A stretch of 64,000 bases of DNA, from NCBI GenBank assembly GCA_016790285.1, contig JAEUPJ010000083.1, positions 1 through 64,000 of the forward strand, written 5' to 3'. Every line of letters begins with the position of its first letter. The stretch's first letter is position 1. The notes under the pieces were generated by a model that was given only the letters and a program-made list of their open reading frames with translations, ran no database searches and was not told the DNA's origin. The stretch comes from Roseateles sp. GTDB taxonomy: Bacteria > Pseudomonadota > Gammaproteobacteria > Burkholderiales > Burkholderiaceae_C. Positions 31,611-37,588 of this stretch are shown here, in pieces. The translations under genes were made by a program, and so were the position numbers.

Positions 31611-32276
31611 TCACTTGCCCGCGGCGGCGGCCTTTTCCTTGCGGATGGCCTTCTCGTCGTTCTCGTCGTAGGGCTTGTTCTGGCACTCGGCCTTCCACTT
31701 GTCGTTGGCGTCGAAGTGCTTCTCGGTGCGCTCCTCGATGCCCTTGAACTGGGCGTCCAGGGCGTCGACCTTGTCGGAGAAGGCCTTGCGCTTGACGGCC
31801 TGCTCGGCGTCGGCGGCCTTGACGACGTCGATCATCGTGCCGAAGGCGGTGGTGCGGGCGGTGTAGGCCTCGTTGCGGGCCTTGAGCTCGTTCTTTTCGA
31901 GCTTGGGGGCCTCGGCGGTCAGCGCTTCGTGGGCCTTCAGGATGGCTTCCTTCTCGGCCTTCACCTCGGCGACCTGCTTGGCCAGTGCGGCCTCGCCGGC
32001 TTCGATGGTGGCCTTCTCGCCCTTGAGCTTGTCGGCATTGGCCTTGTAGGAACTCTGCTCAACCTTGATGGCTTCGGCTTCCTTGCTGTTGGCTTCCTGC
32101 TGGTCGATGCAGGCGCGCAGTTCGTCGCGCGACATCAGCTTGACCTTGGGCTTTTCCACCACCGGGTTGCTGACCTTGTTGTTCTTGGGGTCGACCTTGG
32201 CCTTGGTGTTGTTGGTGATCTGTGCCTGGGCGGAGACGGCGACCACCAGGGCCAGCGGGAGGAGGATGCGTTTCAT
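31611..32276 (-). CDS. Secreted coiled-coil protein of unknown function
   Basis: 221-residue protein with a clear signal peptide (MKRILLPLALVVAVSAQAQ). About 150 residues of Lys/Glu/Ala-rich helix follow, with heptad repeats, a single Cys pair (C in ELRACIDQQ and KAECQNKP) and a charged C-terminus. No catalytic motif is recognised. It stands alone with its own terminator, divergent from yaeQ. The Cys pair at opposite ends of the helical part could close a helical hairpin by a disulfide. Confidence 0.7.
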   Translation of the reverse strand: MKRILLPLALVVAVSAQAQITNNTKAKVDPKNNKVSNPVVEKPKVKLMSRDELRACIDQQEANSKEAEAIKVEQSSYKANADKLKGEKATIEAGEAALAKQVAEVKAEKEAILKAHEALTAEAPKLEKNELKARNEAYTARTTAFGTMIDVVKAADAEQAVKRKAFSDKVDALDAQFKGIEERTEKHFDANDKWKAECQNKPYDENDEKAIRKEKAAAAGK

Positions 32277-32381
32277 GTCGAGCGCGCAACGCTGGGTTGC
32301 GAAGGTTCAGGAACGGAAGGCGGAATCATGCCACGAGGCTTCCCCCGATAATGGCGGGCTGCCCTTAGTAACCATCGTTTC

Positions 32382-34302
<1,921 letters not shown>

Positions 34303-34307
34303 ACCAC

Positions 34308-34345
34308 TGGTCAGGCATCCAGTAGTGCTGTATAAACTTACAGCA
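34308..34345 (+). promoter_or_regulatory. LexA-controlled promoter of a small peptide gene
   Basis: A LexA box CTGT-N8-ACAG (34328-34343) matches the consensus exactly and is extended to symmetrical TG/CA ends (34326-34345). A promoter fits over it: TGGTCA at 34308-34313, a 17-base spacer and TATAAA at 34331-34336, so the -10 lies inside the operator. Bound LexA would block it. The only gene downstream on this strand is the 26-codon ORF at 34365. Confidence 0.85.
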
Positions 34346-34364
34346 CTTTCAGTGGAGCCTGACC

Positions 34365-34445
34365 ATGCATCACCAATACCGCCAGAACTACGTCCCGAGC
34401 CGCCCGCTGCCGCGCTGGCTGCAACTGTTGATCCGCTGGCTCTGA
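34365..34445 (+). CDS. Putative SOS-induced 26-residue cationic amphipathic peptide
   Basis: ORF of 26 codons with a strong ribosome site, GGAG at 34354-34357, seven bases before the ATG. The N-terminal half is polar (MHHQYRQNYVPSR). The C-terminal half is PLPRWLQLLIRWL, a short amphipathic helix with R17, Q20 and R24 on one face and Trp/Leu/Ile on the other, ending at the stop. This looks membrane-active. It is directly behind a perfect LexA box and has no partner gene. SOS-controlled small membrane peptides such as TisB and SidA are precedents, but no sequence similarity to them is seen. Expression is inferred. Confidence 0.65.
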   Translation: MHHQYRQNYVPSRPLPRWLQLLIRWL

Positions 34446-34468
34446 CCCGTGAGGCAGGTGTCTCGCGG

Positions 34469-35254
34469 TCAGGCGTCGTCGGCGATACGCAGGAAGCTGG
34501 CAAAGCGCGGTTTGCCCGCAGGTGTCAGGTCACGGTAGCGGTACGTCACGCGTGACCCCACCGGCGGAGGATGGCGGCGCTGGTCGTCCGTGAAGCCCGT
34601 GCCGAGCTTGAAGCGAATGCCCTCCGGCGTCTCCAACTCCAGCGCGCCCATCAGGCCGGCAAACCGCCCCCTGCCAGGTTCATGGGCCACGACCGTCGCC
34701 TCGGCGTCCAGCTGGGGCTTGAGCTTGAGCAGCCGGTCGCTGCGGCCGGTGGCGGGCGGCGCGTCCGCCCGGTGCAGCATCAGACCCTCACCCCCAGCCT
34801 GGACGACAGCCCGCAGCCGGGCCTGCAACGCTGCGGGGGAATCGATGCGATCCTGCGCCACCGCCACGACCAGCCCCCCGGCGAGCGCCTGGATGCGCTG
34901 CGCCCGTGCCTCGAACGAGCCGCCGGCCTCCGGCAGCTCGAACACGTGATACCGCACGCGACGCCACTCGGCGTCCTGCGGCTCGCTGCGCCGCACGATG
35001 GCCGAGAGCTCGTCGAAGGTGCGGCGCCCCATCCACAGCTCGCCATCCAGGGCTTGCCGCGGCAACCCGGCCAGGAACCACGCGGGTGCGGCCACCACAC
35101 GGCCGCTGCGAAACCTGAGCACCTGCCCGTCCCACAGGGCGCGCACGCCGTCGAGCTTCTCGCTCACAAGGTAGCCGCGCGGGTCGATGCCCGCTGGCGC
35201 ACTGCGGGCCAGCAAGGGCTCCAACGCCCGCGCGGGCCCGCCGCCCAGGCCCAA
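34469..35254 (-). CDS. ATP-dependent DNA ligase, LigE-like (start uncertain)
   Basis: Small ligase with motif I EKLDGVRALWD (the lysine is adenylated), motif III YHVFELPE, motif IV EGLMLH, motif V RLLKLKPQLDAEA and an OB fold to the end. The layout matches the Lig E group, exported enzymes linked to DNA uptake or external DNA. TTG at 35254 is the first permitted start after murB. The reading frame continues upstream as TRRLLLGLGGLLGLGGGPARA, a signal-peptide-like stretch, but the codon where a start is expected (35290) is GTC. The true start or a sequence change is unresolved. About 261 residues from the TTG. Confidence 0.8.
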   Translation of the reverse strand: MGLGGGPARALEPLLARSAPAGIDPRGYLVSEKLDGVRALWDGQVLRFRSGRVVAAPAWFLAGLPRQALDGELWMGRRTFDELSAIVRRSEPQDAEWRRVRYHVFELPEAGGSFEARAQRIQALAGGLVVAVAQDRIDSPAALQARLRAVVQAGGEGLMLHRADAPPATGRSDRLLKLKPQLDAEATVVAHEPGRGRFAGLMGALELETPEGIRFKLGTGFTDDQRRHPPPVGSRVTYRYRDLTPAGKPRFASFLRIADDA

Positions 35255-35292
35255 CAGGCCGCCCAGGCCGAGCAGCAGGCGGCGCGTGACGC

Positions 35293-36372
35293 CTACAGCA
35301 CCACGGGCTCCGGCTCCAGACGGATGCCAAAGCGCCCATAGACGCTTTCCTGGATCGCCCGCGCCAGGGTCACCACCTCCGCCCCCCGGGCATCGCCCTT
35401 GTTGACGAGCACCAGGGCCTGCTTCTCGTAGACCGCCGCCCCGCCCACCGTTTTCCCTTTCCAGCCGCATGCGTCGATCATCCAGCCGGCAGCCAATTTG
35501 ACGCTGCCATCCCCCATCGGGTAGTGAACGATCCCCGGGTCGCGGTCGATGATGTCGCGGCACTGCTCGGCGGTCACCACCGGGTTCTTGAAGAAGCTGC
35601 CCGCGTTGCCGATGACGGCTGGATCAGGGAGCTTGGCGCGCCGAACGGCCACGATCCAGTCGAAGATCTGTCGGGCATCGGGGCTGCGGATGCCCGTCTC
35701 GGCCATCTTGCGCTCGATCTCGAGGTAACCCAGCACCGGCTGCCAGGGCCGCGGCAGCCGAAAGCGCACCCTCGTGATGACGCTCTTGCCCGCCAGGCCG
35801 CCGAAATCGGAGTGCTTGAAGACGCTGTCCCGGTAACCGAAGCGGCAGACTTCGGCCGGCAGCAGCGCCGGCCGGCCGGTGATGAGGTCCATCACCTCCA
35901 TGGCCTCCAGCCTGTCCTTCACCTCGATGCCGTAGGCGCCGATGTTCTGCACCGGTGCCGCGCCCACCGTGCCCGGAATGAGGGCCATGTTCTCGAGGCC
36001 CGGGAAACCGTGGTCCAGCGTCCAACTGACCAGCTCATGCCACGGCACCCCGGCGCCCGCCTCCACGATCCAGGCGTCGTCGCGCGCTTCCAACAGCCGG
36101 ATCCCGGTAATTTCCACCTTGAGCACCACGGCGTCGACGTCGCGGGTCAGCACGAGGTTGCTGCCGCCGCCCAGCACGAACTTGGGCGCGCGGCCGAGAT
36201 CCGGGTGGTCCACCACCCGGCGCACATCGGCCGCCTCGCGGATGCGCACCAGGCGCCGGGCCACGGCCGGCAGGCCGAAGGTGTTGTAGGACTTCAGGTT
36301 CACGTCCGTCTCGACCTGCAGCCCGGGGGCTTCATTCGAGGGGGTTGGTGTCGTGACGGGAGGAATGGACAT
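35293..36372 (-). CDS. murB: UDP-N-acetylenolpyruvoylglucosamine reductase
   Basis: 359-residue FAD enzyme of cytoplasmic peptidoglycan precursor synthesis, reducing enolpyruvyl-UDP-GlcNAc to UDP-MurNAc. FAD-binding blocks include [12 protein letters not shown] and [22 protein letters not shown]; the catalytic serine region is [11 protein letters not shown]. It is the class I (E. coli) type. Start: ATG at 36372, [10 protein letters not shown]. It stands away from other mur genes and is followed directly by the ligase gene. Confidence 0.95.
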
Positions 36373-36447
36373 GGGAAAATTTGTTGGACGTCTAGCGCCG
36401 TGCTTGAACGGCCAATTTTCGCAGACGCCCACCTAACGACATCACAC

Positions 36448-36936
36448 ATGCCCAGCTTCGACACCGTTCTCGAACCCGACCACGTCAAGATCCGCAATGG
36501 CGTGGACAACACCATCAAGGAAATCGGCACCCGCTTCGACTTCAAGGGAACCGGGGCCAAGGTCGAGCTCAAGGACAAGGAAATCCACGCCACGGGCGAC
36601 AGCGAGTTCCAGCTCGAGCAGATCGAGGCCGTGCTGTACGGCAAGCTGACCAAGCAGGACGTCGTCATCAGCTTCCTGGACAAGCAGGACAAGATCGAGA
36701 AGCTCGGCGGCGACAAGGTGCGCCAGGTCTACAAGATCAAGGAAGGCATCGCGGCCGACCTCGCCAAGAAGATCGTCAGCTCGCTCAAGGAGAGCAAGCT
36801 CAAGGTGCAGGCGAGCATCCAGGGCGACGCCGTGCGCGTGACGGGCAAGAACCGAGACGACCTCCAGACGGCGATCGCGCACCTGAAGAAGAGCTTCAGC
36901 GACACGCCGCTCACCTACAACAACTTCCGCGACTGA
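36448..36936 (+). CDS. yajQ: YajQ family nucleotide-binding protein
   Basis: 162-residue protein of two related ferredoxin-like domains. It begins [21 protein letters not shown], contains [13 protein letters not shown] and ends [10 protein letters not shown] as typical members do. Family members bind nucleic acid or cyclic-di-GMP (shown for Xanthomonas). It is divergent from murB; the protease gene follows four bases later. Confidence 0.95.
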
Positions 36937-36940
36937 CCCC

Positions 36941-37588
36941 ATGCACCGCTTCCTGCCCGTGCCGCTGCTGCTGGCCTGCGGCCTGGCCCTCGGCCAGGGG
37001 CTGCCACCCGGCCAGGTGCAGCTCAACGGCATGCTGGGCGCACGCTCGGCCCTGCTGATCATCGACGGCGAGGCACGCACGGTCGAGGTCGGCGCGTCGG
37101 CCAAGGGCGTCAAGCTCGTGGCGATCGAGGACGGCCGCGCGGTGGTCGAGTTCGGCGGCCGTCGCCAGACCCTGACCTTGGGCGCCGCTCCCGGCCGCGT
37201 CGTGCCGCAAACTGCCGCGCCGCGCCAGATCGTCCTGCCCATGGGCCAGGGTGGGCACTACACCACCATCGGCATGATCAATGGGCAGGTCACGAGCTTC
37301 CTGGTGGACACCGGCGCCACCAGCGTGGCCATCAGCCAGATCGAGGCCGAAAAGCTCGGCCTGCGCTACATGTACGGCAAGCGCATCGTGACGATGACAG
37401 CCAACGGCGTGGTGCCGGCCTACCAGATCCAGCTCGGCACGATCCGGATCGGCGACGTGGAGGTGCGTGATGTCGAGGCCATCGTCATCCCCGGCACCAT
37501 CAGCCACGTGTTGCTGGGCAACAGCTTCCTGAACCGCTTCCAGATGCGTCGTGAGAACGACGTCATGACCTTGGAGCTGCGCTACTGA
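36941..37588 (+). CDS. Retropepsin-like aspartic protease (TIGR02281 type)
   Basis: 215-residue exported protein with signal peptide LLLACGLALGQG. A single clan AA aspartic protease domain carries the active triad VDTGATSV near residue 123, with ILLGNSFLN-like VLLGNSFLNRF near the end. Like retroviral proteases it would act as a dimer. Substrate is unknown; it lies between yajQ and prsT. Confidence 0.88.
   Translation: MHRFLPVPLLLACGLALGQGLPPGQVQLNGMLGARSALLIIDGEARTVEVGASAKGVKLVAIEDGRAVVEFGGRRQTLTLGAAPGRVVPQTAAPRQIVLPMGQGGHYTTIGMINGQVTSFLVDTGATSVAISQIEAEKLGLRYMYGKRIVTMTANGVVPAYQIQLGTIRIGDVEVRDVEAIVIPGTISHVLLGNSFLNRFQMRRENDVMTLELRY

Follow-up and report, generated by a model that had tools for sequence, protein, structure and literature searches.

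The 64,000-nt stretch of Roseateles sp. DNA analysed here (the window) carries, between two larger genes, a compact unit made up of a putative promoter, a LexA-type operator, a potential ribosome-binding site and an ORF of 26 codons (Table 1). The ORF upstream was recognized by its sequence and we take it to be argG; the ligase-like gene on the other side is a neighbour which lies outside the peptide unit. The earlier note, written from the letters alone, had listed an operator, a TGGTCA-N17-TATAAA promoter, a GGAG, an ATG and a 26-codon ORF, and on direct reading each of these is found where it had been placed. It had also remarked that no other plus-strand gene follows, which is borne out, the next gene being the minus-strand DNA ligase identified with NCBIfam.

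Table 1. Features of the peptide locus and its neighbours (positions in the window)
Feature	Position	Strand	Basis and remarks
argG (argininosuccinate synthase), presumed	32986..34302	+	Co-directional; ends 62 nt upstream of the peptide start
-35-like hexamer TGGTCA	34308..34313	+	Read from sequence; varies among relatives
Long inverted repeat, operator in the middle, Shine-Dalgarno site in the 3' arm	34308..34365	+	Predicted fold
LexA-type operator CTGTATAAACTTACAG	34328..34343		Embedded in TGCTGTATAAACTTACAGCA
-10 hexamer TATAAA	34331..34336	+	Within the operator; 17 nt after TGGTCA
Shine-Dalgarno-like GGAG	34354..34357	+	7 nt upstream of ATG 34365
26-codon peptide gene MHHQYRQNYVPSRPLPRWLQLLIRWL	34365..34445	+	ORF list; kept in 20/20 same-genus genomes
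Strong hairpin across both stop codons (peptide gene, convergent ligase gene)	34441..34473		Fold prediction
ATP-dependent DNA ligase-like gene	34469..35563	-	Convergent; NCBIfam NF006592, E 1.2e-99

Transcription from this promoter would start near position 34343, giving an inferred leader of approximately 20 nt. A sigma-70 consensus scan of positions 34200–34600 reported neither a promoter nor an intrinsic terminator, with the caveat that the scan demands a final T which TATAAA does not have. Among the same-genus operators the -10 sequence is TATAAA in 19 of 20 and TATACA in the other. The hairpin which spans the two stop codons was not called as an intrinsic terminator in the same scan; it is possibly the shared 3' end of the peptide and ligase genes.

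The window contains one CTGT-N8-ACAG sequence against 0.87 expected by chance, and therefore the box alone proves nothing; it is conservation, and not the box by itself, for which the gene is taken as real. The stricter pattern CTGTAT-N6-ACAG occurs at 8 sites in the 5.88 Mb source genome (five forward and five reverse matches, two sites being palindromic), compared with 0 and 1 matches for the reversed control. These stringent sites include recA, imuA, an rSAM_link_UDG repair gene and the peptide ORF, and lexA possesses a looser box (CTGGATGAAAATACAG) near its start. Since boxes are present at recA, imuA and lexA, the source genome has a LexA system which makes use of such sequences; LexA itself is encoded there (TIGR00498, 224.8 bits).

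A six-frame search recovered the peptide from 20/20 genomes of the genus, the source included (E ≤ 1.2e-7). Roseateles saccharophilus DSM 654 is among the strains with a copy (L079). All of the same-genus boxes are of the form CTGTATA....ACAG (CTGTATAAA in 19, CTGTATACA in one) and lie about 20 nt before the ATG. The ORF, the box and a Shine-Dalgarno-like stretch of 4–6 letters occur together in every one of the 20 genomes, so that the joint conservation of box and ribosome site with the peptide, which the earlier note had proposed to look for, is present throughout. Pooling of the 20 ORFs gave pS = 0.41 and pN = 0.16, a pN/pS ratio of 0.38, compared with 0.93 and 1.76 for the shifted forward frames of the same DNA. 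Variation was seen at 21 of the 26 third codon positions, at 12 first and at 11 second positions, and column identity averages 0.86 across the ORF vs 0.43–0.44 in its flanks. To judge from these substitution patterns, the peptide ORF is under purifying selection. What the earlier note had named as contrary to its own reading, a box kept for another transcript beside an ORF without conservation, is not the situation found, the ORF being conserved at this pN/pS ratio.

Relatives beyond the genus were sought in a sample of 399 genomes spread evenly over the GTDB family, which we assume to correspond to the Comamonadaceae/Sphaerotilaceae group. A single-sequence search of 299 family genomes gave 13 weak matches beyond the genus, of which L032 and L037 were judged to be real on reading. 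These two divergent relatives, together with the genus members, make up profile A2; profile A3 comprises 23 members. Because L032 and L037 were accepted as seeds after their boxes had been seen, the profiles, though they score protein only, are not wholly blind to the box. At E ≤ 1 profile A2 listed 315/399 genomes, mostly through short chance matches, and the counts given here come instead from the A3 search, in which a match at E ≤ 3.3e-5 was obtained in 64/399 family genomes, including 58 outside the genus. This presence is patchy at the strict limit, which argues against an essential checkpoint common to the whole family. The set of loci from outside the genus used below numbers 74, from 71 genomes and 33 genera, and consists of all 61 strong loci (E ≤ 3.3e-5; 27 genera) plus a further 13 of lesser strength (E 2.3e-4 to 0.04), hand-picked for a near full-length match before box inspection, the remaining weak matches being left outside the set. 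With its own genus included, the peptide is found in 28 genera by strong matches and in 34 when the weaker ones are added.

Searches of the order (399 genomes) and the class (350 genomes) gave no match outside the family as strong as those of the family members; absences are soft, at most 21 or 24 candidates per genome having been scored in full. Sixteen outside candidates were read, L100 at a wrong position. One of them, L102, comes from another family of the order (genome G532, 86% complete) and reads RQFYRPRSYKLPPWKKRIYRW; it lies at a contig end, with most of its upstream DNA missing, and is perhaps distantly related to the peptide. A copy which is 90% identical over 20 residues is contained in JAIPCJ010000049.1 (L080), a record whose title, Methylotenera sp., is probably wrong.

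Boxes outside the genus were scored by the number of letters shared with the 12 of CTGTAT-N4-ATACAG at no more than 120 nt from the start, CTG and CAG not being required. A box of at least 9/12 accompanies the peptide at 63/74 loci vs 14/3896 random windows of the same loci, and one of at least 10/12 at 52/74 vs 2/3896; GC-matched windows (n=2208) reach these scores in 2% and 0.7% of cases, respectively. At the lower threshold the box is found at 52/61 strong and 11/13 weak loci and in 29/33 genera, counting a box without the C at L148 and a site 24 nt before the chosen ATG at L177. Seven of the 11 loci without a near box have one farther upstream (L136, L144, L155, L168, L179, L181 and L185), and L195 and L197, members of a subgroup linked to DNA polymerase II which is described below, have a site of 8/12 only. 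The strong loci L141 and L183 have no box of at least 9/12 within 400 nt. As far as sequence comparison can tell, the pairing of box and peptide recurs across many genera. At 16 loci from 10 genera there are tandem boxes exactly 18 nt apart, against 0.013 expected from the flanks, and three further loci have two boxes 17 or 19 nt apart. Tandem LexA operators are found at colicin genes, and by analogy such an arrangement would suit genes that need tight repression.

We consider it almost certain, on this comparative evidence, that the locus is a LexA-controlled, translated peptide gene. The proposal in the earlier note of an undescribed SOS peptide gene is supported by the sequence comparisons in this sense: it appears to be LexA-controlled, translated and so far unnamed. 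The membrane activity and the growth or division brake of that note are candidate roles. Further features of the family, described below, go beyond what the note had listed: the R-Q-x-Y-x-P motif, the fixed W-[L/F] end, the second small protein at 18/74 loci, the tandem operators and the hairpin centred on the operator.

The consensus of 45 aligned members is M-x(n)-[LYF]-R-Q-x-Y-x-P-x(4-6)-P-x-W-L-R-R-[ILV]-W-x-W-[LF]-stop, in which R, Y, P, P and one Trp are invariant. The penultimate residue is Trp in 93 of 94 members and the last residue Leu in 65, Phe in 27 and Cys in 2. Within the genus the net charge is +3 to +5, and outside it the median is +5; lengths outside the genus range from 25 to 40 residues, with in-frame length changes. 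None of the 94 members reached a Kyte-Doolittle value of 1.6 over 19 residues (maximum 0.42), while the octanol scale, which rewards Trp, gave a favourable 19-residue sum in 64/94, that of the window peptide being -4.8 kcal/mol. The longest uncharged run has a median of 6 and a maximum of 15 residues in these 94 peptides. With the hydropathy scales in conflict, it is doubtful that the peptide forms a transmembrane helix like those of TisB and SidA.

The C-terminal 11-mer has a favourable interfacial energy in 94/94 members (median -4.7 kcal/mol), and the amphipathic order of residues beats shuffled order at p < 0.1 in 65/94. A helix lying on the membrane surface or in a hydrophobic groove is in our judgement more likely than one passing through the membrane. 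The conserved R-Q-x-Y-x-P sequence points to a specific partner, and the conserved R, Q, Y and P would be no less compatible with a protein target than with a membrane.

The stretch which follows argG and takes in the peptide gene (34303–34475) folds strongly, with a z of -4.4, and the flank upstream of the gene has a z of -4.46. A relative of argG is directly upstream in 14/20 same-genus loci (tblastn), and relative to shuffled sequence the flank gives z values of -2.0 to -6.2 in these 14 but of -0.5 to +1.0 in the other 6. The association of hairpin and argG linkage in the genus (Fisher p 2.6e-5, the hairpin being absent from the 6 non-argG loci) is to be read with the qualification that the 14 argG-linked loci may be a single clade. 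In 13 of these 14, one near-duplicate having been dropped, the two arms of the repeat pair at a mean of -20.5 kcal/mol vs -16.3 when the arms are swapped between species (permutation p 5e-5), which means that the pairing is kept despite letter changes. The same exercise in the 6 other same-genus loci gave -13.0 for own and -12.6 for swapped arms (p 0.38). The predicted openness of the Shine-Dalgarno site in the window is 0.00 in RNA reading through from upstream vs 0.62 in RNA started at the operator, and at 13/14 argG-linked loci, L008 being the exception, the site is less open in the read-through RNA.

Beyond the genus a z of -4 or lower occurs at 3/16 loci with a close co-directional gene (two of them from one genus) vs 0/46 without (p 0.015), and a z of -2 or lower at 4/16 vs 6/46 (p 0.27); the rule for a close co-directional gene was fixed after one miscalled gene (L018) had come up. 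The hairpin is a local addition and not a family trait. We read it as a device which would shut off translation of RNA arriving from argG. Similar locks on read-through RNA, with a promoter inside an inverted repeat, are found at the IS10 transposase and phage T4 lysozyme genes. As there, only RNA from the inner promoter would have an open ribosome site; unlike in those two cases, the hairpin loop at the peptide locus is the LexA operator. The hairpin may also aid the ending of argG transcription, and the scan of 34200–34600 found no T-run terminator near it.

We propose the following sequence of events. In undamaged cells LexA would repress the promoter by occupying the operator over the -10 hexamer. 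After DNA damage LexA would be cleaved, and RNA would start near the end of the operator and be translated. Read-through RNA from argG would fold into the operator-centred hairpin with its Shine-Dalgarno site shut, so that the peptide would be made solely from the SOS promoter. Less certain are the later steps, in which the C-terminal amphipathic helix (PxWLRRxWxWL) would lie on the surface of the inner membrane or in a protein groove at that surface, specificity would come from RQxYxP, and the peptide would slow division or growth during DNA repair; in some species a protein of about 70 residues, acidic and from the same operon, might cooperate with the peptide or restrain it. With this mechanism taken in full, we put the probability that positions 34308–34445 are a single-gene SOS unit for a new family of short, positively charged and Trp-rich peptides at roughly 0.6. 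For the one step in which the peptide serves as an SOS brake on the membrane surface the chances are somewhat less than even, and it is the reading which we prefer.

Library searches with the peptide found no match at E ≤ 1 in Pfam or NCBIfam (three members; for Pfam this includes SulA, PF03846), and none in PADLOC (two members) or the PDB (45-member profile). Two PHROG families gave a weak match, each to a single one of the 23 members. Nothing was found in plasmids or phages by tblastn with one family member as query, pattern scans with A2 and A5 gave no relative in viral contigs, and an Rfam scan of 32000–37000 returned only three matches, far under the family cut-offs. In size and control the peptide resembles SidA, DinQ and TisB, without homology detected in the family-library searches. 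TisB/IstR-1 of E. coli is likewise a small SOS peptide. TisB is a membrane toxin with an antisense antitoxin and a long leader, neither of which was seen at the peptide locus by the Rfam scan and from the inferred leader of approximately 20 nt.

SidA of Caulobacter is a 29-residue inner-membrane SOS inhibitor of division which acts on FtsW (PMC4211646). It is like the peptide in size and LexA control; unlike the peptide, it has an established target and membrane site. DinQ of E. coli is described as a LexA-controlled, 27-residue single transmembrane peptide of the inner membrane with two close LexA operators, which is regulated by the agrB antisense RNA and by RNA processing (PMC3567139). The two share LexA operators that overlap the promoter, a similar length, and translation limited to particular transcripts; as differences, the peptide has a doubtful transmembrane helix and an inferred leader of about 20 nt, and its surroundings showed no antisense RNA. 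Literature searches brought to light no description or name of the peptide. The beta-proteobacterial LexA regulon is predicted to comprise a limited core set of genes for repair and mutagenesis together with two hypothetical genes, hypA and hypB (PMC3323433); the peptide gene may conceivably be hypA.

SulA is comparable in function, an SOS-induced division block being the role proposed for the peptide. The SulA family is present in 0/20 genomes of the genus. It was above cut-off in 2/40 family genomes, one peptide-bearing (with internal stop codons) and one peptide-free, and is thus lacking in 19/20 peptide-free vs 19/20 peptide-bearing sampled genomes. Since peptide-free genomes lack SulA too, its lack does not point to the peptide; the missing SulA leaves room for another type of division inhibitor, an argument of little weight.

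When the proteins encoded around the peptide were clustered, two associations stood out across genera, the other clusters covering no more than 5 loci. A linkage to argG or to the ligase beyond the genus is rejected by the same clustering. The first association is that of a divergent subgroup (RYVFRPxRPAPALLRRIWAWF type: L194–L197, L199 and L201) with an upstream, opposite-strand protein of about 800 residues, the start of which is 97–147 nt from the peptide in five of the loci and about 0.7 kb away in L194. The one protein of the subgroup which was searched, that of L196, is DNA polymerase II (1257 bits). An operator resembling CTGATnnTTTnTACAG precedes the peptide at all six loci.

The second association is with a small protein of about 70 residues (core EGVxRYVWExRFGxMLIEVxxGxxYVNGxxVEP) encoded on the same strand at 18/74 loci, from 16 genomes and 12 genera, one of the 18 copies (L199) being cut short. 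It follows the peptide at 11 loci and precedes it at 7, and in 6 of these 7 its stop overlaps the peptide start. Its charge is negative in 14 and zero in 2 of 16 usable rows, 2 of the 18 rows covering the wrong stretch. There was no match to this protein in Pfam or NCBIfam (two members) or in PADLOC (one member), one weak match among the PHROGs (E 0.06), chance-level matches only in the PDB (8 at E 0.3–0.36), and nothing in plasmids with one sequence as query. A structural model from 5 sequences has four strands (mean pLDDT 68, pTM 0.43) and is too weak for a fold to be named. The protein is absent from the flanks of 56/74 outside loci and 20/20 genus loci (≤3.5 kb and ≤1.5 kb per side, respectively), and likewise from the window and, in the source genome, from approximately 1.5 kb around each of the 8 stringent boxes. 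Genome G092 has three operons of this protein with the peptide (L181, L183 and L185), which suggests duplication or mobility. An SRAP-like protein is found near the two-gene operon at L141, L181 and L185, in two genera; the assignment is by PF02586, just above cut-off, for the one member searched.

One rival to the brake at the membrane surface, which we rank close behind it while thinking it rather improbable taken singly, is that the peptide regulates a DNA-repair or translesion protein, with RQxYxP and the free W-[L/F] end docking into a polymerase, the clamp, RecA or a protease and tuning it in the SOS response. The residue-specific conservation across the 45 members and the fixed C-terminus would be accounted for, as would the operator region which the divergent subgroup shares with DNA polymerase II and the SRAP-like protein near 3 loci (one member searched). 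However, DNA polymerase II is above cut-off in 1/25 peptide-bearing vs 1/25 peptide-free genomes, the former being those that come first by handle among the strong genomes outside the genus, without G130 and the polymerase-linked subgroup; a general link is therefore rejected, and its equal frequency with and without the peptide makes this association a local one. Moreover, neighbours other than the polymerase of that subgroup and the 70-residue protein are shared by 5 loci at most.

Of about the same rather low probability is a module of two proteins, the peptide and the acidic 70-residue protein forming an SOS toxin-antidote pair or a joint effector, with solitary copies of the peptide using a distant partner or having lost it. 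The two genes share a strand at the 18 loci in either order and in 12 genera, the stop/start overlap is present in 6/7 partner-first loci, and the charges of the two products are opposite; the 56/74 outside and 20/20 genus loci with no partner in their flanks, and a source genome with none in the approximately 1.5 kb around any of its 8 stringent boxes, speak against it. Very unlikely is an exported or antimicrobial-type peptide, SOS-released against competitors as colicins are: the cationic, Trp/Arg-rich composition and the tandem boxes at 16 loci, recalling colicin operators, would suit it, but the polar motif is conserved, nothing turned up in plasmids or phages (tblastn, one member), and no neighbour other than the 70-residue protein is widespread, so that there is no recurring export, immunity or lysis gene. 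Least likely of all is an incidental ORF beside a box which controls a different transcript or a regulatory RNA, a reading to which the strong upstream and 3' hairpins and the conserved box might lend themselves but which is largely refuted by conservation at the protein level (pN/pS 0.38; 86% ORF column identity vs 43–44% in the flanks; in-frame length changes with the same C-terminus across many genera) and by Rfam matches in 32000–37000 that are far under cut-offs.

Returning to the brake at the membrane surface, its most ambitious form is a DNA-damage checkpoint effector of a new type: a Trp/Arg peptide of the membrane surface, doubly insulated by operator and translation lock, with an acidic and, going by the model, probably beta-sheet partner in part of the family, which would do the job of SulA, SidA or YneA in these beta-proteobacteria. 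This we put forward tentatively, as a little less probable than either of the first two rivals. The peptide is probably a new part of the reaction to DNA damage in about thirty genera of one family, and in a family mostly without SulA in the genomes sampled it offers a direct and inexpensive candidate for effectors of the DNA-damage response which have yet to be named. Together with its partner it suggests that LexA regulons contain translated genes too short for routine annotation.

Stringent LexA-like sites were also observed elsewhere. In L205 (contig C23 of the source genome) a CTGTAT-N6-ACAG sequence at 1501–1516 lies approximately 100 nt upstream of mraZ (958–1398, TIGR00242). The mraZ gene is usually the first in the division and cell wall gene cluster, and SOS control of division genes through this box is possible on the sequence. 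In L204 (contig C19, also of the source genome) a site at 1501–1516 is found approximately 100 nt before an ORF which we presume, from its sequence alone, to be topoisomerase IV ParE-like. In L209 a perfectly palindromic box at 1501–1516 stands immediately before a gene for a putative DNA repair protein of the radical-SAM type (TIGR03916).
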